Positions 8,352 to 27,577 of a stretch of 64,000 bases of DNA are shown here, one piece after another. The DNA is taken from positions 1 to 64,000 of the forward strand of contig NZ_KB899425.1 in assembly GCF_000378205.1 (NCBI RefSeq). Direction: 5' to 3'. The notes beneath the pieces were generated by a model, which made no database searches, had not been told where the DNA came from, and saw only the letters and a program-made list of their open reading frames with translations. The translations under genes were made by a program, and so were the position numbers. The stretch's first letter is position 1. Every line of letters begins with the position of its first letter. This stretch comes from Sediminispirochaeta bajacaliforniensis DSM 16054 (lineage in GTDB: Bacteria; Spirochaetota; Spirochaetia; DSM-16054; Sediminispirochaetaceae).

Positions 8352-9483
8352 AATATTAGGCCTCTTATTAAATAATGAGCTCCGAACCGGCGGGCACCGT
8401 CGTTATTTGGAGCTCCTTTCGGGGCTTGCGGCAAAGGGACACAGCGTCCACGTTGTAGTGAATCAGGACATGCAACTCCCCTTTACCGTGGAATGCACGC
8501 TGCTGCCAATCTCCGTAAAAAGCGGCCGTAAAAGGGCTGTAGCGTTTCAAAAAAGCGTGCGCCAAAATGTCGGGAACATCACTGAGCGTGTTCCGGCTAT
8601 AGATCTTGTTGTGGTCTTTGGTGAAACACACTATTTTGCAGGGCTATTCCTCAAGAAATACTATCATGCAAAGCTGCTTTTCTCTTTTCGCAGCAATGTT
8701 ATCCAGGAGGACCTTTACAAGCTAAAAAGTGAGAACATGAACATAGGCGGCCGGTTAAAACTATGTGTGGAGATGGGAAAATATTGGTGGTATGAAAAGC
8801 TAATCGCCAAGAATGCCGATATGATCATATTCCAAAGCAGATACGATCAAGGTTCTTTTCTATCGAGAAATGGTTCTGCCGGTGAAAAGTGCAGGATAAT
8901 CGGTGGAAATATCTGTACACCGTGGTTTGCCGCAGAATTTTCTGGAGCAAACAAGAGCAGATCTCTTCGTAATATCCTTTATATCGGCAGCATCAACATG
9001 CGCAAGGGGATTCGCTTTTTGCTGGATGCCTTTGAATTGCTGTGTGCCGATAACAATGATCTTACACTGACTATAATCGGTTTCGGTCCCGATGAGGAGA
9101 AGTTACGAGATCGCGTTTTGCATTCTACCGCTCGCAAGCAGATTAATGTCGTGGGGAGATGCAGAGATCCCTTTCCCTACTTGCAGGACACGGATGTGCT
9201 GGTCGTCCCTTCATTGTTCGACAGCTATCCCAATGTCGTATTGGAGGCGATCTTCACGGAGACTGCGCTCCTCGCCTCACGAACCGGAGGCATTCCGGAG
9301 ATGCTGGAATACGACGAGCTCCTATTCGAGCCCGGATCGGCCGTGGCGATTCAAACGCGAATAGAAGGGCTGTATGATGAAAAAGCCTTTTCCCGTAATA
9401 AGGCCTTGGTAAAAAAACTTCGAGCCAAATTTGAATTCGACTGGGTCGCGGAATTCGAGAAGCTCATATATGCTATTCTGTAA
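8338..9483 (+). CDS. Glycosyltransferase family 4 (GT-B)
   Basis: The protein has 381 residues from the ATG at 8338 (MKKYRILG). The frame is open upstream but those 20 residues overlap the previous gene and are unlike the family. NNELRTGGHRRYLELLSGLA is the N-terminal acceptor domain. In the C-terminal domain, LYIGSINMRKGI, GFGPDEEKLRD and PSLFDSYPNVVLEAI form the GT4 donor-binding region with the EX7E-type glutamates. It is presumably cytoplasmic and retaining. It ends convergently with the next gene, with an 11-base overlap. Confidence 0.87.
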   Translation: MKKYRILGLLLNNELRTGGHRRYLELLSGLAAKGHSVHVVVNQDMQLPFTVECTLLPISVKSGRKRAVAFQKSVRQNVGNITERVPAIDLVVVFGETHYFAGLFLKKYYHAKLLFSFRSNVIQEDLYKLKSENMNIGGRLKLCVEMGKYWWYEKLIAKNADMIIFQSRYDQGSFLSRNGSAGEKCRIIGGNICTPWFAAEFSGANKSRSLRNILYIGSINMRKGIRFLLDAFELLCADNNDLTLTIIGFGPDEEKLRDRVLHSTARKQINVVGRCRDPFPYLQDTDVLVVPSLFDSYPNVVLEAIFTETALLASRTGGIPEMLEYDELLFEPGSAVAIQTRIEGLYDEKAFSRNKALVKKLRAKFEFDWVAEFEKLIYAIL

Positions 9484-10594
9484 CCCCTGCCAGCTTTTCC
9501 CAGACATCCAACATCTTTCGGGCACTTGGAACCCAGCTTTTGAAGCTTTCCGCATGCTGAAGCCCGCGTCGGATCAATTCCCGTCGTTGTGTCGTATCGG
9601 AAACAAGCTGTTCAAACAGGTTCGCCAGTTCGTGGAAATCCTGGGGATCTTTCATCACCAGAGCTGCATCCCCTACAATTTCGGGAATTGCGAAAATTGG
9701 CGAGGTGATGACCGGGCAACCACAGGCCATTGCTTCGATATTGGGCATGCCGAATCCTTCGGCCAATGATGGAAACACGAAAAGCTTTGCACTGTTGTAA
9801 AGTTGAACAGCCTCTTCTTCCTCTACAAACCCGGCAAGAATGACCCGATTTTCTATGTTGAGACGTTGTAGTTCGGCACGAACCCTTTCGTTTTCCCATC
9901 GTCCTCCACCAATGACCAGCTTCATCCCGGAGTCGGTCCGTTTTTTTATAAATTCGGCAAAGGCACGCAAAAGAGTCCAGGGGTTTTTCCGCTCTGAAAA
10001 ACGGCTTAAGTGAAAAATAAACGGTTCTCCGGGCTTCAGAAGCAAACGTTCCGGTGGCCGCCGCTCGTCCTCCGGCAGCAGCCGGTAGGCACTGTTAACA
10101 GCGTTATAGCAAACGCTCACCCGTTCCGGATGTACTCGAAAGTGCTCGACAAAGTAATTCTTGCTGGTTTGTGATACGGTAATAATATGGTCCATCTTCC
10201 GGGCATAGTATGGTACAAGTACTCTTTCGTGCAGCATTTCGGCATGTCCATAGAATTGGGGGACTAAAAGCTGCTCGACTCCATGGATGGTTGCCGTTTT
10301 CTTGCCCGCAGTGGCCCATATAGGGGCGAATACCGTCAGCGGAGTGAAATGAAGGACATTAAAATGGTGTCGGCGGAGAATTGCCGCCGCACGCAGGGGA
10401 TTGCGGGGAATGAGGATCTCTTCGTCCACTTGTTTGTAGATCGAATTCTCGCTTGTTTCGTAGTGGATGAACACAAAGCGGAGTTTGGTATTCAGTTCCA
10501 GGATATGCTTCATCATTTCATGCAAATGATGGCCGCTCCCGCTTGTCCAATTGTCAAGTTGCTTTGAAAATACACCTATGGTAGGGTGGTTCAT
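9473..10594 (-). CDS. Glycosyltransferase family 4, on the opposite strand
   Basis: The protein has 373 residues. The early DNWTSGSGHHLHEMM stretch and a VLHFTPLT segment are GT-B acceptor-side features; FHLSRFSERKNPWTLLRAF, GGGRWENERVRAEL and PSLAEGFGMPNIEAMACGCP are classical GT4 donor-site motifs with the EX7E glutamates. It is the only - strand gene in the 27-kb polysaccharide locus. It ends 11 bases inside the preceding gene and starts 68 bases from the divergent gene at 10663, so it has its own promoter. It was perhaps inserted or inverted later. Sugar specificity is unknown. Confidence 0.9.
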   Translation of the reverse strand: MNHPTIGVFSKQLDNWTSGSGHHLHEMMKHILELNTKLRFVFIHYETSENSIYKQVDEEILIPRNPLRAAAILRRHHFNVLHFTPLTVFAPIWATAGKKTATIHGVEQLLVPQFYGHAEMLHERVLVPYYARKMDHIITVSQTSKNYFVEHFRVHPERVSVCYNAVNSAYRLLPEDERRPPERLLLKPGEPFIFHLSRFSERKNPWTLLRAFAEFIKKRTDSGMKLVIGGGRWENERVRAELQRLNIENRVILAGFVEEEEAVQLYNSAKLFVFPSLAEGFGMPNIEAMACGCPVITSPIFAIPEIVGDAALVMKDPQDFHELANLFEQLVSDTTQRRELIRRGLQHAESFKSWVPSARKMLDVWEKLAGVTE

Positions 10595-10662
10595 AGCTTA
10601 CCCTCCGTCCGGGTAGCTTAGCGTATCCGGAGACAGAGAGCAAGCAGAAAGAGGTTAACGTA

Positions 10663-11742
10663 ATGGCTAAGATTACCGTGCTGTCTATCTATGATCGTAT
10701 TGCCTGCTTTCACACCTTACGGCCTTTCCTTCTTTATCGTGATCAAAAACTTTTCGATTACACAAACTCTGTTGATTTTTGCTTGCAGCGTGATCGTAAT
10801 CGGATTCTCGTTATGGTTCGCTGGTTTCTTAAACCCGACCGGGTCGATATGGAGGTGATGCGTCGCCTTCGTGATAAATATGATCGCATCATTTTTTTTC
10901 ATGATGATGCCGGCGGAGGGATACCCCGTGCACAGGTGTTGCCCTATGTAGACCGCTTTTATCAGAAAGCACTATTCCGGGATCGTTCTCTATACCAGCG
11001 TTCTCTCTACGGAAAGGAACTTTACTCCGACTATTTCCATCGCGAGCATGGTGTTGATGATCCGGACCCGATAACAAGGGCGGCGGTAGAAGATGCCGAA
11101 CAATTAAAGAAACTAAGGCTTTCGTGGAATATCGGTATCGGTCAGTTCCCCAAAAGAAAGTACCGACAGCGTTTTGCCGTGGCTATGGCACGTCTGGTGG
11201 ATCTCAAGCTTGTGAGAGCCTTTCATTCCCCTGTCCGCCGTGTCGCTTTTTCCAAGCTTTTCTCTGAGGAACGTGATATCGATGTACACGCACGCCTGGG
11301 ATTGGTAAAGCAACCCAGCCTTGCGGAGCACCGCCGACTTATTTTACAAAAGATAGAGGGGGATCCTCGTTTTCTCACAGGTGAGGTTGGTCAGCGCCAA
11401 TACAATCACGAATTGTCCAGGTCCCGAATAGTCCTCTCCCCCTTCGGCTGGGGTGAGCTCTGTTTTCGGGACTTCGAAGCGGTTCTTTCCGGTGCGGTCT
11501 TGCTCAAACCGGATATGAATCATTTGGAGACCTGGCCCGATATATTTGTTGCTGGTGAAACCTATATCCCTTTCGCCTGGGACGCAAAAGACCTGTTGGA
11601 AAAAGTAGATGCGATGCTGACGGATGATACCTTTTGCCGACGTATTGCTCAAAACAGCTATACTGCCTATCATGATCAGCTACAAAGACTTGATGAGCGA
11701 TTTGAAATCATACTCCAAGATATAGTATCCGGGGAGGGGTAA
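10663..11742 (+). CDS. Glycosyltransferase family 1-like protein
   Basis: The protein has 359 residues; the start has AGAGG about 8 bases upstream. The N-terminal half is unusual, rich in Arg, Tyr and Asp. The C-terminal part has SPFGWGELCFRDFEAVLSGA followed by LLKPDMNHLETWPD, a pattern seen in family-1-like transferases with a PF13524-type C-terminal domain. No transmembrane helix is seen. It is first in the + strand run that follows the divergent glycosyltransferase. The next gene, a CDP-alcohol phosphatidyltransferase family member, starts 6 bases after its stop, so the two are probably cotranscribed. Donor unknown. Confidence 0.68.
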   Translation: MAKITVLSIYDRIACFHTLRPFLLYRDQKLFDYTNSVDFCLQRDRNRILVMVRWFLKPDRVDMEVMRRLRDKYDRIIFFHDDAGGGIPRAQVLPYVDRFYQKALFRDRSLYQRSLYGKELYSDYFHREHGVDDPDPITRAAVEDAEQLKKLRLSWNIGIGQFPKRKYRQRFAVAMARLVDLKLVRAFHSPVRRVAFSKLFSEERDIDVHARLGLVKQPSLAEHRRLILQKIEGDPRFLTGEVGQRQYNHELSRSRIVLSPFGWGELCFRDFEAVLSGAVLLKPDMNHLETWPDIFVAGETYIPFAWDAKDLLEKVDAMLTDDTFCRRIAQNSYTAYHDQLQRLDERFEIILQDIVSGEG

Positions 11743-11747
11743 TTTCC

Positions 11748-12476
11748 ATGACCCATATTTCAATGAAAGAGATCAGAGATTCGCTCCCGGAAGAAAAGAA
11801 CCGTGCCGATTCTCTTTGGACTCGTTATATTCTTAGGCCGCTTTCGGTACCCGTTGCCTGGCTTTGTTTACGTTGGGGGCTACGGGCCAATATTGTTTCG
11901 TATCTTTCAGCCCTTATTTGCGTGTTTGCCGCTCTTCTGTTTGGATCGGCTTCCTTGGGCTGGGCGATTATTGGGGCTCTTCTTTTTAATGTGTTTGCTG
12001 TTCTTGATTGTGCCGATGGAAACATGGCGCGAGCCACTGGTACTACCGGGCCATATGGAGCATGGGCCGATGCAATCGGCGGATATGTGGCCTATGTTAC
12101 GGTCTTGTTAAGCCTCGGCTATGCTGCCGCCGTTCGAAACGCACTTTTTTTTGCGTGGGAGCCCAAGGGTAATGTCTGGGTATTACTTGGGGGAGTAGCC
12201 GCCGCCTCTAATATTCTTATGCGGCTTGCCTTCCAAAGCTACCGAAATATTGCTCCTGAAGGAAAGGCGGAAGCAAAAAAGTCAATCGGTTTGGAAAAAC
12301 TCCTGAGTGAAAATCTGGGTGTTACCGGGGTGTTGATGCCAGCGCTTTTTGTGGCCCTTCTTGCCGGAGGGCTGGGATATATTATGATTTTTTATACGGT
12401 TTTCTATGGGTTGGGATGCGTACTGGTCCTCCTTAAATTGATTCGGAAGGTAGAGCATGTTTCGAGAAAGAAATGA
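11748..12476 (+). CDS. CDP-alcohol phosphatidyltransferase family protein with altered signature
   Basis: The protein has 242 residues with several membrane helices. The family signature is D-x2-D-G-x2-A-R-x8-G-x3-D-x3-D. Here D87, D90, G91, A94, R95, G104 and D108 are in register, but position 112 is Gly, where the fourth Asp (the catalytic base) should be. The family transfers phospho-alcohol groups from CDP-linked donors. In a locus that also encodes CMP-aminoethylphosphonate synthesis (24956-25690), a role in transferring AEP phosphonate to the glycan or a lipid is an attractive inference. Its ATG follows the preceding gene by 6 bases; its end overlaps the next gene by 20 bases. Confidence 0.82.
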   Translation: MTHISMKEIRDSLPEEKNRADSLWTRYILRPLSVPVAWLCLRWGLRANIVSYLSALICVFAALLFGSASLGWAIIGALLFNVFAVLDCADGNMARATGTTGPYGAWADAIGGYVAYVTVLLSLGYAAAVRNALFFAWEPKGNVWVLLGGVAAASNILMRLAFQSYRNIAPEGKAEAKKSIGLEKLLSENLGVTGVLMPALFVALLAGGLGYIMIFYTVFYGLGCVLVLLKLIRKVEHVSRKK

Positions 12477-13863
12477 GACCTACATGCTGCTTTTTGTGGT
12501 GGTCGATACCTTATCAACCATCCTTGCCTTTTGCGCCGCAGTTGCCGTTCGTTTTATCATTCAGGAAGCAAATCTATTCGAGTTCTATGCCATCGATCTT
12601 CGGGAATATATGTATATAGGCCTGGTTCTTGCTTCTTCGCAGGTGATGGTCTTCTATTTTATGGATTTGTATCGTCCGGGGAAGGTTGGCCTGGTAACCG
12701 ATGAGTTTAATCGGGTAGTACTGGGGACAATCGTCACCATCTTCATGGCGCTGGGTGTTATTTTCTTTCTCAAGACCCATCGATATAGTCGTCTGGTCGT
12801 ACTCTATTTCGGAATTCTGAATGTCGCTTTTGTTTCCCTCGGCAGGGCTATTGCCAGATTCTTCATTAAGAAAATGCTCTTGAAAGGCCGGCGTATACGC
12901 CTTATTCTGGTTCTCGGTACCGGCAGAACCGCAAAGCAGTTCGAAGAGGTAATTCAACGAAACCGGCTTTACGGCTATCTGGTCAAGGCCTTTGTCCGGC
13001 TCCCTGAAGAGGGAGAGGTAAAGGTCGAAAACGATAAAATCCTTGGTTCGTTTGAGGACATTCCCCGGCTCCTAACCGAGATCAGGCCTCATCACGTTAT
13101 CTTTGCATGTGATTCCACCAGCAGTGATATGCTCCAAAGGGCAATACAGATGTGCAATCATGAAGGAATCCATATGCATGTGATACCCAGTTTCAGCGAA
13201 TTGATTACTTCAAAGGGCCGGCTTGAGAGCCTTGAAGGAATTCCTCTCATCACTTTGCGCGATATCCCTGCTCGAAGGGGCTTTAATCGTTTTTTTAAGC
13301 GTTTGTTTGATATTATCTTTTCCCTGTTGTTTATCATCCTTTTTTCTCCCTTTTACATCATTATTGCTCTGGCGATCAGGCTTACATCAAAAGGGCCTGT
13401 CTTCCTTTCACAGGAGCGTGTTGGACTCGACAACAAGTTATTCAAGGTACTGAAATTTCGTACCATGTCTGTGCAACAGCCGGGGGATTCCGATATCATC
13501 TGGACCACCAAGAACGATCCCCGAGTAACACCTGTTGGTCGAATCTTGCGAAAATTGTCCCTTGACGAAACCCCGCAGTTTTTTAACGTATTTACGGGAA
13601 CGATGTCGGTCGTCGGCCCCAGACCGGAGCGCCCCTATTGGGTCGAACAATTTAAAGAGCGCTATACCGGCTATATGCAGCGTCACGGCATGAAGGCCGG
13701 TATCACCGGATGGGCTCAAGTCAACGGCCTTCGCGGCGATACCTCCATCGAGGAACGGGTGGCCGCCGATATCTATTACATTGAGAACTGGTCGATTCTG
13801 CTCGATCTAAAGATTATTCTGCTTACCCCTTTTAAAAGTGTTATCGACAGGAATGCCTATTAG
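12457..13863 (+). CDS. Polyprenyl-phosphate sugar-1-phosphate transferase (first of two)
   Basis: The protein has 468 residues: four N-terminal membrane helices, a central CoA-binding-like/Rossmann domain (LVLGTGRTAKQFEEVI), then a catalytic bacterial sugar transferase domain. The latter has the membrane re-entrant segment FDIIFSLLFIILFSPFY, then KFRTM, the catalytic LDETPQFFNV Asp-Glu pair, and MSVVGPRPE. Such enzymes (WbaP/WcaJ/EpsE type) start glycan synthesis by moving sugar-1-phosphate from a nucleotide sugar to undecaprenyl phosphate. The start overlaps the preceding gene by 20 bases, with GGAAGG upstream. The next gene begins right after its stop. Confidence 0.92.
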   Translation: MFRERNETYMLLFVVVDTLSTILAFCAAVAVRFIIQEANLFEFYAIDLREYMYIGLVLASSQVMVFYFMDLYRPGKVGLVTDEFNRVVLGTIVTIFMALGVIFFLKTHRYSRLVVLYFGILNVAFVSLGRAIARFFIKKMLLKGRRIRLILVLGTGRTAKQFEEVIQRNRLYGYLVKAFVRLPEEGEVKVENDKILGSFEDIPRLLTEIRPHHVIFACDSTSSDMLQRAIQMCNHEGIHMHVIPSFSELITSKGRLESLEGIPLITLRDIPARRGFNRFFKRLFDIIFSLLFIILFSPFYIIIALAIRLTSKGPVFLSQERVGLDNKLFKVLKFRTMSVQQPGDSDIIWTTKNDPRVTPVGRILRKLSLDETPQFFNVFTGTMSVVGPRPERPYWVEQFKERYTGYMQRHGMKAGITGWAQVNGLRGDTSIEERVAADIYYIENWSILLDLKIILLTPFKSVIDRNAY

Positions 13864-14973
13864 ATGAGAATGCACATTTGTTTTATCATAACCCGCGGAG
13901 ATTCCATCGGCGGTGCCCAGATCCATGTTCGTGATATGGCCATAGCCCTGCGTAAAGATGGTCATGATGCCTCGGTTTTGGTTGGCTCTCCAGGGGATTT
14001 GACTGATCAACTGGAGCGAGCAGGGATTCCCTGGGAACATGTCCCTCTCCTTGTTCGTCCCATTCGTCCATGGAAGGATCTTCGCGCCGTTTTCTCTGTC
14101 GCTTCGAGGCTTCGGCGTCTGAAGCCCGATCTGGTTTCCTGCCATACCGCCAAAGCGGGTATGGTTGGGCGACTTGCCGCTTTCGTTGCGGGCCGGCCTT
14201 CTATTTTTACCGCCCACGGCTGGCAGTTTGCCGATGGAATACCCGGCAAGCAGGCAAAAGCGGTATTGCTTATTGAAAAGCTTATCTCGCCATTGTGCCG
14301 CAAAGTCATTACGGTCAGTCGGTATGATTATGATCTTGCTGTGCGCAAACGTGCGGTGAACCCTAAAAAGATGCTTACTATTCACAACGGCCTTCCGTGG
14401 ATGGAGGATCGGGACAGCTTCGGGGCGTCCCCTGCCGAAAGGCCCTGCCGCTTACTCATGGTCGCCCGGTTTCAGGAGCAGAAAGACCACACCAGCCTTT
14501 TGACTGCTCTCGGCGGTTTAAAAGAGCTTTCATGGGAGCTTGATCTGGTCGGAGACGGCCCCGGTATGGAAGCCGAGAAGGAACGTGCCCGGGACTTGGG
14601 ATTGGAAACGCGTATCGAATTTTCGGGTCAACGGCTAGATGTTCCCGAGCGGATGGAGAAGGCCGATATCTATCTGCTTATCAGCAATTGGGAGGGCTTT
14701 CCCCGTAGTATTATTGAGGCAATGCGAGGGGGACTGCCGGTGATCGCCAGCGATGTCGGCGGCTGCAATGAATCGGTTGCCGAGGGGGAGAGCGGCTTTT
14801 TGGTTCCCAGAGGCGATGCAGAGCTTTTGCGGAAGCGGATCGCCACACTGATCAACGACTCCGCCCTGCGTCGGCGAATGGGGAGGACCGGTCGCCGGCG
14901 TTATGAAGAGTATTTTACCTTTCAGATCATGTATGAGAAAACAGTTGAACTCTATCGTGAGGTTTTGGCGTAA
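13864..14973 (+). CDS. Glycosyltransferase family 4
   Basis: The protein has 369 residues. The N-terminus reads TRGDSIGGAQIHVRDMAIAL, the usual GT4 start, then SCHTAKAGMVGRLAAF and FTAHGW. The C-terminal domain has LLMVARFQEQKDH, LVGDGPGMEAE and ISNWEGFPRSIIEAMRGGLP with the EX7E-like glutamates. It resembles transferases acting second in exopolysaccharide units (EpsD/EpsF or PglA-like), and its position directly after an initiating transferase, with no spacer, fits this. Specificity is unknown. Confidence 0.9.
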   Translation: MRMHICFIITRGDSIGGAQIHVRDMAIALRKDGHDASVLVGSPGDLTDQLERAGIPWEHVPLLVRPIRPWKDLRAVFSVASRLRRLKPDLVSCHTAKAGMVGRLAAFVAGRPSIFTAHGWQFADGIPGKQAKAVLLIEKLISPLCRKVITVSRYDYDLAVRKRAVNPKKMLTIHNGLPWMEDRDSFGASPAERPCRLLMVARFQEQKDHTSLLTALGGLKELSWELDLVGDGPGMEAEKERARDLGLETRIEFSGQRLDVPERMEKADIYLLISNWEGFPRSIIEAMRGGLPVIASDVGGCNESVAEGESGFLVPRGDAELLRKRIATLINDSALRRRMGRTGRRRYEEYFTFQIMYEKTVELYREVLA

Positions 14974-15044
14974 TCCAAAGCGGAATCCATTTTCTCTTGT
15001 GAAATGGCCCGCCATACGATAAGATGCCGATAAGGAATAACGAC

Positions 15045-16688
15045 ATGAAGAAATATTTTAGTGCCCTATGTGCAATTATGTTCTGCCAGATCATCTTGTC
15101 TCCAATCTGGGCTATGGATTTTACCATGATGGGAGAGGATGAGGATTGGCTTCCTCCTGCGGGAGAAGAATACCTGGCTTTTAACTTCGCCGGTTTTCTT
15201 ACGGCGGAGAAGCGAGAGGAATTGTTGGACGATCAGGCGGATCTTCCGAGCTTCTTCGACGAAGAGCGGCTCAGTTTCGATTATCGTACTCAGTTATTTC
15301 AGATGTTCATCGATGGATCGCTACTCGATGACGGAACGTACAGTGAACAGGAGCCCTATCTGGGGGGAAGATACTTCTACCTCAATGATGCCTATCTCAA
15401 AACCAACCTCGATCGGTTTCAGCTCAAGGTTGGGCAGGGCCCCCATCACGATGTGGTTGATACCCCCTATAGCCTCTTTATCTCCTCGAACGATTTTTCC
15501 GTGCTTCATGCCGAGATCGACTACGACGGGGATTTCTTCTTTTACAAGACCCGCTGGGTCAGCATGAACAACGACAGTTCGCAGATCTATTATGGATCGG
15601 ATGATGATTGGAGTAGTATGACGACTACTACATGGCCGGACGCTGACCCTCCAGATGGTGAGACCTACTGGCTCGACAAGGGGATGAATTTCAAGGTCTA
15701 CGGTTTCAACCTCGGCGAGGGGTGGCGGGTCGGATTCGAGGATGTAGTGGTCTATCTCGGCCGCTCCTTTGATGCCAACTATTTTTTCAATCCCATTCCG
15801 CAGTATTTTCTCCAGTTGATCACCAGCGAGGACGGAAATCCCTGGGTACAGGCCGGAAATACCAAGAGCATGATGGGCTTTTTTGTCGATGTAACCCGCG
15901 ATGATTGGGGGGCGGAGACACAGCTTCTGATTGACGATATAAACCTAAGTTTTCTTCCCTTTGTGCCCGACCGCAGCTTCAAGGACAAGATTGCCTGGAA
16001 TATAGGGGGATGGAAGGACTTCAGTTTCGGTACCATGGGTTTCCACCATGCCGGAGCCACCAAATACACCTTTGAATCGACCCGGACCATTGAAAGCGAC
16101 GGTAGCTGGGGAGATGTCGGATACGTGGATGTTCCTTACAGCATTCTTCCCTACGAGTATGCCTACTATCCGGTAAACGAATATACCTTGAAGAACGGAG
16201 AGCAAATGGCCATCCCCTACGAGGACCTCTATGCCGGGTACAAATACGGGGAAAACAACCTCGCCTTTCTTGTCGATTACGAAAATCTGATGTTTGCCGG
16301 TACTCCTCAGGAATTTAAGCTATATGCCTCTTTCGAGTATGTGATGAACGGATCCAAGTCTCCTTCCAACCCCTGGCATGAATACGATAGCCCGCGTAAT
16401 TCTGATATCGAGGATTCTGCCTGGTGTATGTTCACCGGAGCCCCTATCGAGTATGTCTTCAGGGCAAAGGCGAACGCCCGTAAACCGATCGGCGACTTTA
16501 CCGTGCTGATGGAGGTGCAGGCCGGTTATGTTATCAATGGCGCAGAACTGATCGAGGTTGATGCAAACTATGAAGATTATAACACAATCGATTGGACCGA
16601 ACCGAAGATCTATGTACCGCAGAATGGAAACAATTTTCCGATTTTTGGGGTCACCGTCGGGTTCAATTATTCCTGGCGGCTTAAGTAG
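15045..16688 (+). CDS. Wzi-like outer-membrane beta-barrel protein (second of three)
   Basis: The protein has 547 residues from the ATG at 15045, which has AAGGAA 8 bases upstream; an in-frame start at 15024 lacks a box. The signal peptide is AMFCQIILSPIWA. The mature protein is acidic and strand-rich (FYLNDAYLKTNLDRFQLKVG, VGFEDVVVYLGRS, ETQLLIDDINLS) and ends with FNYSWRLK. The layout (LKVGQGP segment, then a long series of strands with LLIDD) resembles the Wzi family, but similarity is weaker than for the gene at 4657. It lies between a glycosyltransferase and the GtrA gene. Role in anchoring or exporting polysaccharide is inferred. Confidence 0.62.
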   Translation: MKKYFSALCAIMFCQIILSPIWAMDFTMMGEDEDWLPPAGEEYLAFNFAGFLTAEKREELLDDQADLPSFFDEERLSFDYRTQLFQMFIDGSLLDDGTYSEQEPYLGGRYFYLNDAYLKTNLDRFQLKVGQGPHHDVVDTPYSLFISSNDFSVLHAEIDYDGDFFFYKTRWVSMNNDSSQIYYGSDDDWSSMTTTTWPDADPPDGETYWLDKGMNFKVYGFNLGEGWRVGFEDVVVYLGRSFDANYFFNPIPQYFLQLITSEDGNPWVQAGNTKSMMGFFVDVTRDDWGAETQLLIDDINLSFLPFVPDRSFKDKIAWNIGGWKDFSFGTMGFHHAGATKYTFESTRTIESDGSWGDVGYVDVPYSILPYEYAYYPVNEYTLKNGEQMAIPYEDLYAGYKYGENNLAFLVDYENLMFAGTPQEFKLYASFEYVMNGSKSPSNPWHEYDSPRNSDIEDSAWCMFTGAPIEYVFRAKANARKPIGDFTVLMEVQAGYVINGAELIEVDANYEDYNTIDWTEPKIYVPQNGNNFPIFGVTVGFNYSWRLK

Positions 16689-16706
16689 CGGAACGGACGA
16701 CAACGC

Positions 16707-17132
16707 ATGACGGTGGCGGGACTATTTCGCGTTCTTTTTGTCGATAAAAGCTCTCATCGGTTTGTAGAGTTTTTTCGCTACTTTTTCGTGTCTGCAATTT
16801 CTCTTGTTGCCGACTTCTTGCTGCTTTTCCTGTTGACCAGTGTGGCAGGTATTCACTACCTGATCTCCTCGGTCTTTTCGTATATGGCAGGTCTGATCGT
16901 CAACTACCTTTTGAGCACGTATTGGGTCTTTGCCAAGCGAAGAGTTTCCAACCGTGCCGTTGAATTTTCGGTGTTTGCTCTTGTCGGAGTTATCGGCCTG
17001 GGGGTCAATGAAATCCTCATGTGGCTGTTTACCGATGTTTTGATGCTCTACTATATGCTTTCACGTGTTTTTTCAGCGGGGATTGGATATGCCTGGAAAT
17101 ATGTCGTTAGAAAAATCATCCTTTTCCGATAA
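16707..17132 (+). CDS. GtrA-family membrane protein
   Basis: The protein has 141 residues with four hydrophobic helices. FFRYFFVSAISLVADFLLLF begins the first, and the conserved pattern YMAGLIVNYLLSTYWVFAKR is diagnostic of GtrA (PF04138). The C-terminal RVFSAGIGYAWKYVVRK also matches. GtrA proteins are thought to flip undecaprenyl-phosphate-linked single sugars. It is followed by a GT-C type enzyme and a dolichol-phosphate-mannosyltransferase-like GT2, recreating the three-gene Gtr modification system. The next gene overlaps its end by 44 bases. Confidence 0.9.
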   Translation: MTVAGLFRVLFVDKSSHRFVEFFRYFFVSAISLVADFLLLFLLTSVAGIHYLISSVFSYMAGLIVNYLLSTYWVFAKRRVSNRAVEFSVFALVGVIGLGVNEILMWLFTDVLMLYYMLSRVFSAGIGYAWKYVVRKIILFR

Positions 17133-18627
17133 GCAGACGGACCGTTTATTATTAGCGGTCCTTATTGCTTTTACCCTTTTTGTTCGGCTCTACTTTTTGC
17201 AGATGATCAATGTCGGGCCGGATGAGATTGATTACTGGTTTAGTGCCAAGCGGCTGATAGGGCCAGGTGCATACCCTGATTTAATGCACAGGACGATACG
17301 GTGGGCAATTATTCTCCCTACGGCCTTTTTTCAGCTCCTTTTGGGGATGCATCCTCTTGTCTACTACGTTGTTCCTGTTTTCAATTCACTTGTACAGACG
17401 GTGCTCCTCTTCCTCTTGGGAAAGCATTTGTTCGGCAGGGGGGTATCGTTTTATGCGGTGCTGCTTTTTACCGCCTGGCCTTACATGTGGCGTACGGGAA
17501 GCCAAATTCGCCCTGCCGTTTTTTCTCTTACCTATGTCCTCGCCGCACTTTGCTTGCTTTTTTTCTACCTTGAACATGCTCAGGATGATTCCCGTCGAAG
17601 CAGGCTCTGTTTCGTCGGGTCGGTTCTTGCATTATTTCTGGCCTATGAAAGCAAGATAACAAATCTCTATTTTCTTCCGGGAATTCTCATTGTTCTCCTT
17701 CTGCGGCACCGTCGGATGGGACCGGCAATACGTTATGGCCTCTATCTTTTGGGACTCTATGTCATCGAGCACGTTGCCTACTTCGTGGCTGTTGGTGATC
17801 CTTTGGGGCGGCTCGGCATTATTGCAAAAAATCATCTTGCTTCCTCGTATGCCGACAAGTTACCGAAATCGTTCTGGGGGCTCTTCGAGCGCTATACGAT
17901 CTATCTTGAGTTCCCGTGGCATCTGTTGCTTATTGCCTTTGTTGCCGCTTCCATCTACCTGCTTGCCAAGAAAAAGCCGTGGATTCGGGAATTGACGGTT
18001 CTTCATGCCAGTTTTTTCTTTTTCCTTACCTTTATGGTGAAGAGCATAAAGCCGATCGTTCCTGTAGAGGCATTTCTTGACCGTTATTTTATTGCCTGCC
18101 TGCCGACGATGTCTCTCGTTATTGTATACGCTCTTCATGAGCTTCTGCCCCTATCGATAGTAGGTGAACTAAATCGACGAGGTGTATTGATCTCTCTTAC
18201 TGCCGGGCTTTCTGTGGTGATGTTGCTGATAACAGCTCTTCCGATGCCGAAGTCGATCGAACGCTTCTATACTCCGTTGCAGCGGATTCATGATCATCCC
18301 ATTGCCAAGACCTTTGAATTCCAGCATCTCATTGCCTCTGCTATCGAGGAGAATATTCCAATTTTAAGTGTCGATACCCGAAAGCCGCTGGACACTGCCA
18401 ACCGTGTATTTTTTGATGACCCGAAAAAGGGTAGATGGGCTCGTCCCATTGGAAAACTGGAAATCGAGGGCCATGTTGTATACTACCTCGATGGTATCGG
18501 AAATGTCCCTTTTGCCTTTGATGTTCAGGAGGGAAGCACGAACGTTTTATGGTGTGATCGTTTTAACTTCGATATGACTATGTTGAAGTTGCGGGAAATA
18601 CCCAATTTAGGTGATATATATGAGTGA
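17089..18627 (+). CDS. GT39/ArnT-like membrane glycosyltransferase (GT-C)
   Basis: The protein has 512 residues from the ATG at 17089, chosen because GGGGA lies 8 bases upstream; 17101 is possible. About ten membrane helices are visible. GPDEIDYWFSAKRLI contains the acidic residues of the first periplasmic loop, as in PMT/ArnT enzymes, and LFTAWPYMWRTGSQIRPAVF follows. These enzymes use polyprenyl-phosphate sugars as donors on the periplasmic side. Between GtrA and a GtrB-like GT2 it would act as the GtrC-equivalent that decorates the glycan. The C-terminal 80 residues are a soluble domain. Confidence 0.78.
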   Translation: MPGNMSLEKSSFSDKQTDRLLLAVLIAFTLFVRLYFLQMINVGPDEIDYWFSAKRLIGPGAYPDLMHRTIRWAIILPTAFFQLLLGMHPLVYYVVPVFNSLVQTVLLFLLGKHLFGRGVSFYAVLLFTAWPYMWRTGSQIRPAVFSLTYVLAALCLLFFYLEHAQDDSRRSRLCFVGSVLALFLAYESKITNLYFLPGILIVLLLRHRRMGPAIRYGLYLLGLYVIEHVAYFVAVGDPLGRLGIIAKNHLASSYADKLPKSFWGLFERYTIYLEFPWHLLLIAFVAASIYLLAKKKPWIRELTVLHASFFFFLTFMVKSIKPIVPVEAFLDRYFIACLPTMSLVIVYALHELLPLSIVGELNRRGVLISLTAGLSVVMLLITALPMPKSIERFYTPLQRIHDHPIAKTFEFQHLIASAIEENIPILSVDTRKPLDTANRVFFDDPKKGRWARPIGKLEIEGHVVYYLDGIGNVPFAFDVQEGSTNVLWCDRFNFDMTMLKLREIPNLGDIYE

Positions 18628-19528
18628 AGCATCCGAAATGAATGGACTGTCGATTGTCATCCCTGCCTATAACGAGGAAAAGGCCATAGTAGAGACCATC
18701 GAACACGTGACTGGGGTTATGGAGCCGTCCCAAACGCCTTATGAGGTGGTTCTGGTAAACGACGGCTCTACGGATAAGACTGCGGTTATTATTCAATCGT
18801 ATCTCCATGATCATCCCCAGCTTGCCGAGCGGGTTCGCCTTGTCGAGCATGCGCACAATCGTGGATATGGGGCCAGCCTGAAGACCGGTATTCGAGCGGC
18901 AAAGAATGAAGCAATCTGTATTACCGATGCCGACGGAACCTATCCAAATAATCGCATTCCCGAGCTGTTCGGAATGTTCCGTGAACGGGGATTAGATATG
19001 GTGGTAGGTCGGCGGAGTTTCAAAAAATTACCCACGCTGACCAAACCGGCAAAATGGTTTATTACCAAGCTTGCAAGTTTTCTGGTTGACGATAAAATTC
19101 CTGATATAAATTCGGGATTGCGGATATTTCGGCGTTCGATTGCCGTGAAATTTTTTCCGATCATCTGCGATGGTTTTAGTTTTACAACCACAATTACCCT
19201 TGCGATGTTTTCAAATGGATATCAGGTTCATTATGAACCAATTGAATACTTCAAGCGGAAAGGAAAATCGAAAATAAGGCCGATTCGGGACACCATCAAT
19301 TTTATCCAGCTTATTATTCGTACCGTTGCCTATTTTAACCCGCTGAAAGTATTCGTTCCTGTGAGTCTCTTGCTTTTCCTTGTTGGGTTCTTGCTTTTCA
19401 TCATCGGACGGATGGGGATTTTCTTCGCCGAAACGCCGAACGATACCATCACGATACTCTTTGTGGGTGGTATACAGGTTTTGGCTACCGGAGTGATTGC
19501 AGATATGATAGCCAAGAAAAAAGATTGA
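18620..19528 (+). CDS. GtrB/DPM1-like polyprenyl-phosphate glycosyltransferase (GT2)
   Basis: The protein has 302 residues from the ATG at 18620, overlapping the preceding stop by 8 bases. The GT-A domain has LSIVIPAYNEEKAIVETIEH, VNDGSTDKT, HNRGYGASLKTGIRAA and TDADGTYP, the pattern of dolichol-phosphate mannosyltransferases and GtrB. Two C-terminal membrane helices (VFVPVSLLLFLVGFLLFIIG and a following one) match GtrB topology. It would charge undecaprenyl phosphate with one sugar, GtrA would flip it, and the GT-C enzyme would transfer it. Confidence 0.9.
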   Translation: MSEASEMNGLSIVIPAYNEEKAIVETIEHVTGVMEPSQTPYEVVLVNDGSTDKTAVIIQSYLHDHPQLAERVRLVEHAHNRGYGASLKTGIRAAKNEAICITDADGTYPNNRIPELFGMFRERGLDMVVGRRSFKKLPTLTKPAKWFITKLASFLVDDKIPDINSGLRIFRRSIAVKFFPIICDGFSFTTTITLAMFSNGYQVHYEPIEYFKRKGKSKIRPIRDTINFIQLIIRTVAYFNPLKVFVPVSLLLFLVGFLLFIIGRMGIFFAETPNDTITILFVGGIQVLATGVIADMIAKKKD

Positions 19529-19539
19529 TGGAATGAGAG

Positions 19540-20955
19540 ATGAATCGTAGGCGCAGGGTTTTTGTCCGTAATGCTCTTATGGCCATAGACGGTATTGTGA
19601 CCTTTTTTTCTTTCATAGTTGCTTACTATGTTCGTAACACGCCGTTTTTTTTCGGTCTTAAGGCCCTGTTTCCCTTTTCGAACTATTTCCCCTATCTTCT
19701 CATTTCACTGGTTTTTTGGTTGTTGCTCCTTCGCTTCTTCAATAATTATGCCTTTCTCGGGGGAGGAAAGAAGTCGTGGCGTAGGATTTTTGTCAATTTA
19801 CTGCCGGTGGAATTGGTCGGACTTGCTCTTCTTACCATGATCCTTTTCTTCCTTCGTGATCAGATCATTAGTAGGACCTTTCTTCTCTTTTTTGCGGCCA
19901 TTAATTATCTTATGCTTCTGATGACCAAGATATTAACCATGGCCTATTTTCTGCGGGAAGGAAAGATAAAGAAGTACCATCGCCGGGCTTTGTTGGTTGG
20001 CAATAAAAGATCTGTCGATTACTTCCTTTCCACTGAAAAACAGATGCCGGAGCTGTTGTTCGACATCATCACACAATCTGAGTTCATTATCAACGCAGAT
20101 GCCGTTTTAAACGAGAAGGAGCAAGAGGAACTGTCCGAGGCAATTCTTGATTTTATCTGGAACAATGTGGTCGACGAGGTGATCTTTGCCTATTCTGATT
20201 TGAACCTTGCCTCCATCAGTTCGCTCGTTACCGAATGCGGACGAATGGGCATATCGGTCAACGTTGTTCTGGATACCTCCAACATTGAGTTTCGCAAAAG
20301 TGAGGTTGATGTTGTAGGACCATTCAATATTATCACGTTCCAAACCTTCGACTATTCCCCGGTTCAACGTTTGGTAAAGAGACTTACCGACATTAGCGCC
20401 GGTATTATCGGAACTCTTATATGTTCATTGCTTTTTGTTGTTATTGCTCCTCTGATTAAGATAACTAGTCCCGGGCCCATACTTTTCAGGCAAGTAAGGA
20501 AAGGAAAGAACGGTAGAAATTTCGTACTTCTTAAATTTCGGACCATGTGCCTCGATGCGGAAGATCAGAAAAGGTCGTTACTGGATAAAAACGAGATGCA
20601 AGGCCAAATTTTCAAAATGAAATATGATCCGAGGATAACCCCCTTGGGAAATTTTCTGCGTAGGACAAGCCTTGATGAATGGCCGCAGTTCATCAATATT
20701 CTGCGCGGTGATATGTCTCTTGTTGGGACCCGGCCGCCAACGGTAGAGGAGTTCGGCTCCTACAGAAATTACCATCGTCGGAGGCTCAGTGTGAAACCCG
20801 GTTTGACTGGCCTTTGGCAGGTGAGTGGGCGTAACGATATTTCCGATTTCGAGGAGATCGTTAAACTTGATACCTGGTATATCGATCACTGGTCGATATG
20901 GCTTGATCTTAAGATTATTCTAAAAACGTTTCTGGTTTTGTTTCGAGGGAGATAA
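19540..20955 (+). CDS. Polyprenyl-phosphate sugar-1-phosphate transferase (second of two)
   Basis: The protein has 471 residues with four or five N-terminal helices, a Rossmann-like middle ([13 protein letters not shown]) and a C-terminal catalytic domain. The latter includes [25 protein letters not shown], the catalytic [10 protein letters not shown] Asp-Glu pair and [26 protein letters not shown] is typical. It belongs to the same superfamily as the protein at 12457, but the sequences differ enough to suggest different sugars. Two initiating enzymes in one locus suggest two lipid-linked glycans, or alternative starter sugars. It is the last gene before the phosphonate genes. Confidence 0.92.
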
Positions 20956-20959
20956 TCCT

Positions 20960-20995: not shown

Positions 20996-21032
20996 CATTA
21001 CCTTGATAAAGAAAGAACAACAGGACTATGTC

Positions 21033-22655
21033 ATGACAAAGAAAACCACACAGTTTCGGAATTTACTTGCCTCCGATCGTCTCGAATTTATCCTCGAGGC
21101 GCACAACGGTATCAGTGCGAAAATCGTCGAAGAGGCTGGTTTCAAGGGGATCTGGGGAAGCGGCCTTTCCCTTTCTGCTCAGTACGGGGTACGTGACAAC
21201 AATGAAGCAAGCTGGACTCAGGTTCTGGACATGCTCGAGTTTATGTCCGATGCCACCACGATACCCATCTTGCTCGACGGCGATACCGGTTACGGCAACT
21301 TCAACAATATGCAGCGGCTGGTGCGTAAGCTCGAACAGCGTGATATTGCCGCGGTTTGTATTGAGGATAAGCTTTTTCCCAAGACCAATAGTTTTATTAA
21401 AGGGACTGCTCAGCCTTTGGCTGACATCGAGGAGTTCTGCGGTAAGATCAAGGCCGGAAAGGATGCCCAGGGCGACGATGATTTCTCCATCATTGCACGG
21501 GTCGAGGCCTTTATTGCGGGCTGGGGGCTGAAGGAGGCAATGCGCCGGGCGGAAGCCTATCGGAAGGCCGGAGCAGATGCTATTCTCATGCACAGTGCTC
21601 TGTCGGTACCCGATGAGATCCTTGCTTTTAAAAAGGAGTGGGGCGACCGGCTTCCGGTGGTCATCGTTCCGACAAAGTACTATGCTACCCCTACGGATCA
21701 GTTCAGAGAGGCCGGCATTTCCATCGCCATCTGGGCAAACCACATGATACGAACGGCCATTGCCTCGATGCAGAAGAATGCGGCCACCCTTATGGCCGAA
21801 GAGTCTCTCATGGCCATAGAGGATTCCATCGCTCCGGTAAAGGAAATATTTCGCCTTCAGGGGGCGGCTGAGCTGCAGGAGGCTGAAAAACGCTATCTTC
21901 CCAAACGGGGAAAGGCGGTTCGGGCCGTGATCCTTGCCGCCAGCCGCGGTAAGGAGCTTGGTGAACTTACCGAAAAACGGCCTAAGGCGATGGTCCCGGT
22001 CTCCGGCCAGCCCCTTCTTGCCCATGTGGTGGACGGTTACAATTCCGTCGGCGTGAAGGATATCACCGTTGTCAGGGGATATGCAAAAGAGACAGTCAAT
22101 CTTTCCAATATAGATTATGCGGATAACGACAACTTTGAGAGCACCGGAGAGCTTGTCAGCCTTTCCTGCGCCCTCAAGTCCCTTGCCTCGGAAGATACCG
22201 GCAAGGAGTTGGTCGTTTCCTACGGTGATGTCCTTTTTAAGAAGCATATCCTCCAACTACTGCTCGAAAGCCATGCCGATTTTTCCATCGTGGTGGATAC
22301 CAACTGGAGTGAAAGTGTTAATAAGGGCAGGTTTGCCGACTATGTTCAGTGCAGCCGCCCCTACGGCCGCGATGCCTTCGGCCAGGAAATTTCATTAACC
22401 GAGATGAGTGAACATCTGCCCGAAAAGAGGACCCATGGCGAATGGACCGGGTTTCTTAAGGTCTCTGCCGATCACCGTCTTCTCCTTGGCAAGCTTGTCG
22501 AAAACCTTACGGTGGAAGATCCGTATGCGCGGATGAGTGATCTGCTCAACGCTTTGGTTGCCAACGGTGAGCGTGTGAGGGTTATCTATACGACTGGTTA
22601 CTGGCTCGATATCGACACGCTGGAAGATGTCGTGCTTGCCGGAAACCTCTTCTAA
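21033..22655 (+). CDS. Phosphoenolpyruvate mutase fused to a nucleotidyltransferase domain
   Basis: The protein has 540 residues from the ATG at 21033; a TTG at 21003 would add ten. Residues 1-290 are PEP mutase: DGDTGYGNF (82-90) binds Mg and [11 protein letters not shown] (111-121) is the PepM signature that separates it from isocitrate lyase-like enzymes. It forms the C-P bond, turning PEP into phosphonopyruvate. Residues 297-540 are a RmlA/LicC-type nucleotidyltransferase, but the usual GxGTRL loop reads AASRGKELG (302-310); PK (317-318) is kept. The standalone cytidylyltransferase at 24956 has the normal loop. The fused domain's role is therefore uncertain. The Ppd gene follows after 15 bases. 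Confidence 0.95.
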
Positions 22656-22670
22656 CACCGGAGGGCTGTA

Positions 22671-23816
22671 ATGATTGAAGCCGATCTTTTTGTGCGCCAG
22701 GCTTTAGAACGGGGGTTCGGCCTTTGGAGCGGGGTTCCCTGCTCCTACCTGAAACCCTTTATCAACCATGTTATCGATGATCCTGCCGTTCGCTATATCC
22801 CGGCGGTCAACGAGGGGGATGCCGTTGCCATTGCTTCCGGAAGTCATCTTGCGGGAATTCGGGGTGTGGCCATGTTCCAAAACTCCGGGCTGGGAAATGC
22901 GGTAAATCCGCTGACCAGCTTGAACAATACCTACCGTATTCCGGTCTTGCTGATCGTTACCCTCAGGGGAGAACCTGGGGCTCCGCCCGATGCGGTACAA
23001 CACGGCCTCATGGGGCCGATAACTACCGCCATGCTTGATGTGCTTCAGATTCCATGGGAGTACTTTCCAGACGAGGAATCAAAAGTGAGCGAGGCCCTCG
23101 ATCGGGCCATTACCTCCATGAATGGCACATCTCTTCCTTATGCTTTGGTGATGCGAAAGGGATCGGTGGCAAAGAAGGCGCTGAAAAGCAGCATGGAAAT
23201 TCGTGCCCCGAAAGTTGGCCGGCGTGGCGGTGCCTTCTTCGAGACCGAGGCAAACGCAAGCCGTAGCGACATGCTCAAGGCTATTCTTGATGCAGCCGGC
23301 GATGATGTACCGATTCTCGGGACCACCGGTTATACCGGACGAGAGCTTTATGCGATCAACGACCGATCGGGCAACTTTTATATGGCTGGTTCCATGGGCT
23401 GTGTTTCAAGCATCGGCCTCGGTATCTCCACGGTACGATCGGGAAGGGTTATTGCCGTGGACGGAGACGGAGCGATCCTCATGCGTATGGGGGCTCTTGC
23501 GACCAACGGCTACCAGCGTCCCGAAAACCTTGTGCATATCGTCCTCGACAACGGCATGCACGAATCTACCGGCGGTCAGGCCACCGTTTCCGCTTCCGTT
23601 GATCTCTGTGCCGTAGCCGCCGCCTGTGGTTATCGTAATGTTTTTGAAACCAGGAGTCCGGAAGAGCTTCGGGACCTCTTGTCCCAACATGATCTTTCCG
23701 GCATCACCTTTATCAGGGCTCGGACGATTCCCGGCAGTCCGGAAAACCTGCCCAGACCTACGCAGCGGCCGGAGGAGCTTTCAAAGCGCTTTGCCGCTTT
23801 CTTACAAAACCGATAA
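22671..23816 (+). CDS. Phosphonopyruvate decarboxylase
   Basis: The protein has 381 residues, normal for Ppd/AepY. It is a single-chain thiamine-diphosphate enzyme. NEGDAVA near residue 48 carries the cofactor-activating Glu, and GDG (265-267) with Asn294 (VLDNGMHEST) forms the metal/diphosphate-binding motif. It decarboxylates phosphonopyruvate to phosphonoacetaldehyde, pulling the unfavourable PEP mutase equilibrium forward. GGAGG lies 7 bases before the ATG. It is flanked by pepM and the transaminase in a tight operon, so the assignment is secure over sulfopyruvate decarboxylase. Confidence 0.94.
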   Translation: MIEADLFVRQALERGFGLWSGVPCSYLKPFINHVIDDPAVRYIPAVNEGDAVAIASGSHLAGIRGVAMFQNSGLGNAVNPLTSLNNTYRIPVLLIVTLRGEPGAPPDAVQHGLMGPITTAMLDVLQIPWEYFPDEESKVSEALDRAITSMNGTSLPYALVMRKGSVAKKALKSSMEIRAPKVGRRGGAFFETEANASRSDMLKAILDAAGDDVPILGTTGYTGRELYAINDRSGNFYMAGSMGCVSSIGLGISTVRSGRVIAVDGDGAILMRMGALATNGYQRPENLVHIVLDNGMHESTGGQATVSASVDLCAVAAACGYRNVFETRSPEELRDLLSQHDLSGITFIRARTIPGSPENLPRPTQRPEELSKRFAAFLQNR

Positions 23817-23844
23817 TGCGCGATAGCGAAGGAGAAATGAGCGT

Positions 23845-24945
23845 ATGACGAAAAAGAGACCTGTTATTCTGCTTAACCCCGGCCCGGTAACCATCAGCGA
23901 CCGGGTGAGGGAGAGCCTGCAGAGAGAAGATATGTGCCACCGTGAGCCTGATTTTGCAGCTTTGATGCTTGATGTCAAGAAACGGCTTGCTGCGATCTAT
24001 GAAGGTGGAAGCGAACATTTCGAGGCCCTGGTGATGACCGGAAGCGGAACCTGTGCCGTTGAGGCGATGATTTCCAGCCTTCTTCCTTCCGACGGAAAGC
24101 TGCTGGTGATTTCAAACGGGGTCTACGGCGAGCGAATTGCGTCTATGGTCAAGACCCATGGAAAGCAGATGGTGCTGGTAAAAAGTCCCTGGCCCGATCC
24201 GATGAATCTTGCCGAGGCGGAGCGGCTTTTGAAGGAAGATCCTTCCATTACCCATGTTTCCGCTATTCACAACGAAACCACCACCGGGCGGCTTAACGAC
24301 CTTGATGCTCTTGGTGCCTTGTGTGTCACATACAATAAGCCGATGCTCCTGGATGCGGTCTCCAGTTTTGGCGGCGAACGAATCGAGCTTGAAAAATGGA
24401 ACGTTGCCGCCCTTGCTTCCACGGCAAACAAGTGTATCCACGGTATCCCCGGTCTCAATTTCGTTCTTGTCAGAAAAGATCTTCTGGAACAGGGCAAGAG
24501 TGCCGCCGCCACCCTGTATCTCGATCTTTTTGCCTATTACCAAAAACAGAAAGAGGGTTTTTCTCCCTTTACCCAGGCGACCCATGTTGCGGTCGCACTC
24601 CAGGAAGCCTTGAAGGAGTTCGAAGAGGCAGGCGGCTGGAAGACGCGGAACGAGCGTTACCGGGAACTTTCGGTTCGTATTCGTGCCGAACTTGATGCCA
24701 TGGGTATCCGCCGCTTCTTAAAAGAAGATGAATACAGTTCCATGCTTTCGAGCTTTCACCTGCCCGAGGGCTACAGCTATGAAGAGCTCCACGATGAGCT
24801 GAGAAAAGAAAACTTCATCATCTATGCTGGACAGGGCGGACTCTTTCATTCGATTTTCCGCATCGCCAATATGGGTGATCTTTTTGATGCGGATATCGAT
24901 AGGCTTTTGGCTGTTTTCCGTCGGCTCATGGATTCCCGGAAATAG
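23845..24945 (+). CDS. phnW: 2-aminoethylphosphonate transaminase (biosynthetic direction)
   Basis: The protein has 366 residues, standard for fold-type I class V aminotransferases. LLNPGPV at the start, TGSGTCAVEAM, LLDAVSSFGG with Asp170 and the PLP lysine K196 in STANKCIHGIPG match AEP:pyruvate aminotransferases. Degradation pathways use it in the reverse direction, but here it follows PEP mutase and Ppd, so it should aminate phosphonoacetaldehyde to 2-aminoethylphosphonate. No phosphonatase (PhnX) gene is nearby. A transaminase fused to a cytidylyltransferase occurs in some relatives; here the two are separate genes 10 bases apart. Confidence 0.93.
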   Translation: MTKKRPVILLNPGPVTISDRVRESLQREDMCHREPDFAALMLDVKKRLAAIYEGGSEHFEALVMTGSGTCAVEAMISSLLPSDGKLLVISNGVYGERIASMVKTHGKQMVLVKSPWPDPMNLAEAERLLKEDPSITHVSAIHNETTTGRLNDLDALGALCVTYNKPMLLDAVSSFGGERIELEKWNVAALASTANKCIHGIPGLNFVLVRKDLLEQGKSAAATLYLDLFAYYQKQKEGFSPFTQATHVAVALQEALKEFEEAGGWKTRNERYRELSVRIRAELDAMGIRRFLKEDEYSSMLSSFHLPEGYSYEELHDELRKENFIIYAGQGGLFHSIFRIANMGDLFDADIDRLLAVFRRLMDSRK

Positions 24946-24955
24946 GACGTTTCCG

Positions 24956-25690
24956 ATGCCGATGGGAGTAAAAACGGCGGTGATTCTTGCCGCCGGCCGG
25001 GGCACCCGCCTCGGAAAACGCGGTCTTGAAGCGCCTAAAGGGTTTTTGCAGATCGGAGAAAAGCCGATTATCCAGGAATCCCTGGACCGGCTCAAGGCCG
25101 CCGGGGTTGAAAAGGTTGTTATCGTTACCGGGCATTTGGCCCATTTCTACGAAAAACTTGCAGCAGATTCCGGCGGTTTTGTCAGAACCGTCCATAATCC
25201 CGACTATGCCGATTCCGGTTCCATGTACAGCCTCTATCAGGCCCGCAAGGTCCTTGGGGACGCGGCCTTTTTCCTTCTTGAATCGGATCTTATCTACGAA
25301 AGCCGTGCCCTGGCGGTGCTGAAGGAGCAGTCTGAATCCGATTGTATCCTCATGTCGGGTTTTACCGGCAGCGGAGACGAGGTGTGGATCTATGCTCCCG
25401 AGGGCTATCTTGTCGATATGGGAAAGGTGCGGGAAACCTTGACTGGGCCTCCTTGCGGGGAACTTGTTGGGGTCAGCCTCCTCTCGCCCGAGGGCTACAG
25501 TCGCCTCTGTATCGAGGCGGAACGGCTTTTTTCAGAAAGCCTCAAGGTCGAATATGAGACAGCCCTTGTTGCCTCTTCCCGGAAAAAGCCGATCGCCTGT
25601 CACCTCGTTTCGGATCTGGTCTGGAGTGAGATCGACGACGAGTCTCATCTTCAGCGGGCGAAGACGCGTATCTATCCCCGATTGTCTTAG
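24956..25690 (+). CDS. PntC-like CTP:2-aminoethylphosphonate cytidylyltransferase
   Basis: The protein has 244 residues from the ATG at 24956 (AGGA about 8 bases upstream). AVILAAGRGTRLG (8-20) is a canonical nucleotidyltransferase loop, followed by APKGFLQIG with the conserved Lys, NPDYADSGSMYSLYQAR and FLLESDLIYE with the metal-binding Asp. The family includes LicC (phosphocholine) and PntC, which makes CMP-AEP from CTP and AEP in Treponema. Its place as last of the AEP genes supports PntC function. The product would be the donor for tailoring glycans or lipids. Phosphocholine-type specificity is the main alternative. Confidence 0.85.
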   Translation: MPMGVKTAVILAAGRGTRLGKRGLEAPKGFLQIGEKPIIQESLDRLKAAGVEKVVIVTGHLAHFYEKLAADSGGFVRTVHNPDYADSGSMYSLYQARKVLGDAAFFLLESDLIYESRALAVLKEQSESDCILMSGFTGSGDEVWIYAPEGYLVDMGKVRETLTGPPCGELVGVSLLSPEGYSRLCIEAERLFSESLKVEYETALVASSRKKPIACHLVSDLVWSEIDDESHLQRAKTRIYPRLS

Positions 25691-25711
25691 AATCTTAAAA
25701 AAGGAAGCTAC

Positions 25712-27547: not shown

Positions 27548-27577
27548 AAAAAGCCGCCCGGCCGGGCGGCTTTTTTT
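27548..27577 (+). terminator. Strong intrinsic terminator ending the polysaccharide locus
   Basis: AAGCCGCCCGG and CCGGGCGGCTT form a perfect GC-rich stem at 27551-27572 followed by seven T. The upstream A-run makes it function in both directions, so it probably also ends transcription of the convergent gene whose stop is at 27610. Confidence 0.93.

Follow-up and report, generated by a model that had tools for sequence, protein, structure and literature searches.

A conserved family of CDP-alcohol phosphotransferase-like proteins lacking the fourth signature aspartate in bacterial polysaccharide loci

The window analyzed here, a 64,000-nucleotide stretch of the Sediminispirochaeta bajacaliforniensis DSM 16054 genome, encodes a CDP-alcohol phosphotransferase-like protein (CDP-AP) that lacks the fourth signature aspartate (D4), the presumed catalytic base. 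The gene (11748..12476, + strand) starts with ATG and encodes 242 aa, with the signature at approximately 12006-12083 reading D87-CA-D90-G91-NM-A94-R95-x8-G104-AWA-D108-AIG-G112-Y113. D87, D90, G91, A94, R95, G104 and D108 are intact and Gly112 takes the place of D4, so that translation of the open reading frame and the alignment described below agree with a preliminary description of this DNA, in which the signature was in register to D108 and followed by Gly at position 112. The Pfam profile PF01066 matched at 31.4 bits (cut-off 22), and the best NCBIfam match, to PIP synthase, was far below its cut-off (47 vs 170 bits). The cytosine-contact motif P(D/N)xx(T/S) described at TM1 (PMC4634129) can be read in the sequence as A47-N48-I-V-S51, with Pro replaced by Ala. 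The protein has PF01066, a predicted six-TM CDP-AP fold and D1xxD2GxxAR...GxxxD3, but not D4, and we therefore refer to it as a D4-less variant of the superfamily and not as a canonical member.

D4 has been described as absolutely conserved, and a mycobacterial PIP synthase with D4 changed to Asn was nearly inactive (PMC4634129); D4 also coordinates the second metal (PMC6506517). In an alignment of 41 relatives, column 112 held 40 Gly, one Ala and no Asp, and the seven other signature residues were each conserved in 41/41. Every other catalytic residue being kept argues against decay. No universally conserved replacement acid was found in the same alignment, positions 183 and 188 being acidic in only about two thirds of the sequences. 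In the sister genome from the same genus (G025) the residue is likewise Gly; the two genes differ at 31 nucleotides, with a dN/dS of ~0.07-0.11. A sequencing error, which the preliminary description had kept as an alternative, was ruled out by this Gly under purifying selection in the sister genome together with the 41-row alignment. The AF2 model of the protein (pLDDT 93, pTM 0.88) showed residues 102-129 as a single continuous helix spanning D108 and G112, which predicts that D4 has been substituted and not displaced; with the alignment, this helix also ruled out an indel shifting D4.

The wider set contained 51 distinct Gly members, and relatives were found in Spirochaetota, Bacillota, Anaerolineales, Bipolaricaulota, a Desulfobacteraceae MAG and one Fibrobacterota MAG. 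When 91 CDP-APs were placed in a tree, all 51 Gly proteins fell on one side of a weakly supported branch (78/45). Other clades had Asn, Arg or His at D4, and a Clostridia relative (L249) beside a PF01467 cytidylyltransferase had Ser (DSISSY), indicating that more than one branch of the CDP-APs from polysaccharide loci has lost or altered D4. Loss of D4 is the hallmark of a conserved family spread across several phyla, not an error or an adaptation to phosphonates, and its members probably catalyze transfer in the absence of the textbook base. In our literature search, which covered few subscription papers, no description of D4-less CDP-APs or of their glycan-locus family was found, and no biochemistry for members of the subfamily.

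Several variants at D4 were observed alongside the Gly group. A separate CDP-AP clade in Bacilli (L209, L215, L217, L219, L223, L224 and L225) has Asn at D4 (DIGLNYA/S), and in L230 a LicC-like NTP transferase lies directly 3' of the CDP-AP gene. Loci L204, L220/L232 and L079, L093 contain CDP-APs with Arg (DTLIRYT/DTLIRAM) or His (DDMAHYI/DSIGHYI) at D4, of which the genes in L232 and L093 adjoin an NTP transferase. The Desulfobacteraceae locus (L079) has three tandem D4-less CDP-AP genes (9180-11508) in one glycan locus, with a fourth CDP-AP, carrying His at D4, upstream of them.

The window gene belongs to a run of 14 successive genes on the + strand (10663 to 27511), with gaps of at most 50 bp, that also includes the phosphonate genes. 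Its conserved upstream neighbor in spirochaete loci is a PF13524 (Glyco_trans_1_2) glycosyltransferase with a weak RXYLT1_C match (10663..11742, +), and a divergent GT4 glycosyltransferase (9473..10594, − strand) is the third member of a conserved spirochaete trio. A WcaJ-type undecaprenyl-phosphate hexose-1-phosphate transferase (12457..13863, +; TIGR03023 458 bits, cut-off 411) overlaps the CDP-AP gene by 20 bp and is followed by a GT4 glycosyltransferase (13864..14973, +) and the remaining polysaccharide genes (15024..20955, +), which encode a predicted outer-membrane protein, GtrA-like, PMT_2-like and GT2 proteins and a second polyprenyl-phosphate sugar transferase. The phosphonate genes, all on the + strand, encode a PEP mutase (PepM) with a fused C-terminal, PntC-like NTP_transf_3 domain (21003..22655; TIGR02320 385 bits, cut-off 320), a phosphonopyruvate decarboxylase-like TPP enzyme (Ppd, 22671..23816), a class-V aminotransferase that is probably an AEP transaminase (AEPT, 23845..24945) and a stand-alone LicC/PntC-like NTP transferase (24968..25690). 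A terminator-like hairpin with a 12 bp stem (27548..27575, +), identified by consensus match only, lies just 3' of the run's final gene. That this run has two polyprenyl-phosphate hexose-1-phosphate transferases (12457-13863 and 19540-20955) suggests two lipid-linked glycans, and the phosphonate locus has two distinct cytidylyltransferase domains, the PepM-fused one (21003-22655) and the stand-alone one (24968-25690).

The PepM-NTP fusion, TPP decarboxylase, class-V aminotransferase and second NTP transferase suggest a locus that makes CMP-2-aminoethylphosphonate (CMP-AEP). PepM above its TIGR02320 cut-off, Ppd, AEPT and NTP-transferase domains are the gene set of the Pnt pathway, in which PntC has been shown to form CMP-AEP (Rice et al., 2019; PMC6697681). 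The window follows the same PepM-NTP fusion/Ppd/AEPT/PntC logic in a surface-glycan locus; however, Pnt/Lic tailoring includes LicD, and no match to LicD (PF04991) was found in the source genome (G000) or in the sister genome G025. EptA (PF08019) also had no match in either genome, and the one TagF-like match in G000 was weak and on another contig. By this elimination and by gene linkage, the D4-less CDP-AP is the best candidate for the CMP-AEP user here, and thus for the final transferase; the steps after C-P bond formation were called enigmatic in the 2019 Pnt paper (PMC6697681). Because polysaccharide genes cluster anyway, the number of linked cases overstates the strength of this evidence.

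Gene neighborhoods of the relatives point to surface polysaccharides in general. Spirochaete subfamily genes often occur in the trio with GT4 and PF13524 glycosyltransferases, and outside the spirochaetes the genes are found in capsule/EPS loci with Wzz, CpsB, priming sugar transferase, Wzx and Wzy genes. Cytidylyltransferases of several kinds accompany many of them: a PF01467/TagD-type gene is directly adjacent in L082, L085, L249 and L238 (tagD) and also present within L087 and L247, TarI-like genes occur in L229 (with an alcohol dehydrogenase) and L248, LicC/PntC-like genes in L048, L049 and L084 (adjacent in L084), and PepM/PntC in the window, L051, L077, L078 and L086. The theme common to these loci appears to be a soluble CMP-activated small alcohol or phosphonate. 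Within the neighboring DNA examined, no recognized cytidylyltransferase was found in most spirochaete trio loci.

Related CDP-APs beside PepM/Ppd/AEPT genes were found in G089, Brucepastera, Treponema MAG11 and a Bipolaricaulota MAG, so that the PepM linkage recurs in separate lineages and in a second phylum. In G089 (L051, 1292-2089) a CDP-AP with Ala at D4 (DAAGAY) is part of a compact operon with PepM, Ppd, an NTP transferase and AEPT. In the Bipolaricaulota locus (L086, 2333-8540) a pair of adjoining D4-less CDP-APs precedes a PepM-NTP fusion, a split TPP decarboxylase, an iron alcohol dehydrogenase and a second NTP transferase, a gene set that suggests a pathway to hydroxyethylphosphonate and not to AEP. 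Among 58 PepM loci, a set that leaves out the window, G025 and G089 loci and is limited by short contigs, no CDP-AP was found within ~10 kb of PepM besides those of Brucepastera, the only such spirochaete locus in the set, and the Bipolaricaulota locus; this rarity argues that a CDP-AP is not the usual phosphonate transferase. LicD was near PepM in six other spirochaete loci (G007, G005, G206, G194, G236 and G316), and Brucepastera has LicD and CDP-AP in one PepM locus.

The nearest solved structures of the modeled protein are CDP-APs, the best two being enzymes with soluble donors. By VIA Z, the comparison score used, the best match was AF2299 (Z 19.8 over 210 residues, rmsd 3.0), followed by IPCT-DIPPS (Z 17.6), the PIP synthases (Z 16-17) and CPT1/CEPT1 (Z 11-14). 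AF2299 and IPCT-DIPPS (PDB 4o6m, 4q7c, 4mnd) share the fold and the seven signature residues with the window protein at ~14-16% identity; their pocket is described as small and hydrophilic, and as accommodating soluble donors (PMC4634129). AF2299, which also gave a profile match to the window protein (E 8e-16), keeps D4 (DGVLDRYSD), whereas the window protein has Gly and then Tyr. The PIP synthases (PgsA1/RsPIPS; 6h59, 5d92) share the fold and the metal and cytidine site residues but need D4 and the following Arg for activity. The choline/ethanolamine phosphotransferases CPT1/CEPT1 (8ero, 8gyw) belong to the same chemistry class, moving a zwitterionic head group from a CMP donor, but are larger and use a lipid acceptor, in contrast to the glycan proposed here.

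From these observations we infer an active, D4-less membrane transferase that delivers the phospho- or phosphono-alcohol of a soluble CMP donor to a glycan, with CMP-AEP as the likeliest donor in the window, a reading that we rate as slightly short of an even chance. Loss of D4 in the subfamily would predate the recruitment of its members to different polysaccharide loci. The intact D1-D3/G/A/R site would hold the CMP part of the soluble donor, and the attached phospho- or phosphono-alcohol would pass to a saccharide acceptor during surface-polysaccharide assembly. In the window the donor would most likely be CMP-AEP from PepM/Ppd/AEPT/PntC, and the product would then be a glycan decorated with AEP. 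Lacking D4, the enzyme could deprotonate the acceptor via D108 or a metal-bound water or hydroxide; alternatively, the donor's own phosphate or phosphonate oxygen could act as base, or the acceptor may already be ionized. A new acceptor and a different base, both raised in the preliminary description, are possible. Seven of eight signature residues without exception, purifying selection, soluble-donor structure matches and polysaccharide loci bearing cytidylyltransferases speak for this transferase. The near loss of PIP synthase activity upon the D4-to-Asn change, the want of a universal replacement acid, trio loci mostly without a recognized cytidylyltransferase, about half of the gene-bearing genomes without PepM, and the additional LicD of Brucepastera stand against it. 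The broader proposal, that the subfamily as a whole performs base-free transfer through a metal- or substrate-activated nucleophile or an ionized acceptor, and is a general glycan head-group transferase (glycerol-P, ribitol-P, AEP) alongside LicD and TagF, is more doubtful but possible.

The main rival has CDP-diacylglycerol as donor, a phosphatidyl group being moved onto a sugar or polyol; the resulting lipid anchor or glycolipid would be extended by the adjacent GT4/GT enzymes, in a logic like that of PIM. This donor is always available and would explain the trio loci without a cytidylyltransferase, GT4 enzymes are indeed adjacent, and the best, if far sub-threshold, NCBIfam match is the PIP synthase noted above. 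However, several unrelated types of cytidylyltransferase lie beside subfamily members, and the structural match to AF2299/DIPPS is slightly better than that to the PIP synthases, the Z differences being small. Moreover, Arg/Lys directly after D4 is required in PIP synthases that accept inositol phosphate (PMC6506517), and this position is Tyr113 in the window protein and Tyr (24), Phe (16) or Met (1) in the 41 rows. We regard a CDP-diacylglycerol donor as unlikely.

An equally unlikely alternative is a working glycan head-group transferase whose donor here is another CDP-alcohol, with the phosphonate genes of the run serving a different step. Close relatives without phosphonate genes, the two cytidylyltransferase domains of the window and the more than one glycan suggested by its two polyprenyl-phosphate sugar transferases would fit such a donor, but this would leave CMP-AEP without a transferase of a known type (LicD or EptA) in the genome, and in G089 the CDP-AP gene abuts the PepM operon. 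Much less probable is an inactive paralogue that has been retained as a scaffold or for substrate binding. One characterized homolog is inactivated when D4 is lost (PMC4634129), but the remaining catalytic residues are invariant across phyla and the gene is under purifying selection (dN/dS ~0.1), a conservation that also makes the loss of function considered in the preliminary description unlikely, and most loci hold this CDP-AP alone, leaving no obvious active partner.

The first idea about this gene was that Asp may have been changed to Gly to suit a phosphonate donor, in which case the Gly should track with neighboring pepM/pntC genes. It does not. Gly members are present in genomes in which no PEP mutase was found at E<=1e-40 (the 99% complete spirochaete G291, Caenibacillus and Isobaculum), in Heyndrickxia, whose PEP mutase match is far below the cut-off, and in the cps locus of the Lactiplantibacillus plasmid pSN35N-3, where the gene for the homolog WP_126321129.1 is overlapped by tagD; no published polysaccharide structure for this L. 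plantarum SN35N plasmid locus was found in the literature. Conversely, CDP-APs in phosphonate clusters have been noted before (PMC5987646; PMC9933511), and those of aepX operons keep D4 in Mycetohabitans (GHFYDLAADAL), Burkholderia and Rhizobium (GKSLDGFGDII). In the aepX phosphonolipid-type cluster (Burkholderia/Nostoc; PMC5987646), the neighbors of the CDP-AP are PepM, Ppd, AEPT and a phosphocholine-cytidylyltransferase-like gene. This CDP-AP has D4 in those Burkholderiaceae proteins that were checked and, unlike the window gene, does not lie in a polysaccharide cluster. PepM is commoner in class genomes with the CDP-AP gene (9/18 vs 36/279, p 0.0003; by genus 7/13 vs 21/99, p 0.017), a statistic that ignores phylogeny, but given this double dissociation, and phosphonate-linked members scattered inside the weakly supported Gly group, we reject Gly112 as an adaptation to a phosphonate donor. 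Of the new donor proposed in the preliminary description, use of CMP-AEP may still hold, in view of the shared gene run, the PepM-linked relatives and the lack of LicD/EptA matches; the idea that the Gly reflects this donor does not.

A natural, conserved D4-less family makes the catalytic-base hypothesis for CDP-APs directly testable. It also points to an unassigned pathway through which phosphonates and polyol phosphates may become linked to the surface glycans of bacteria.
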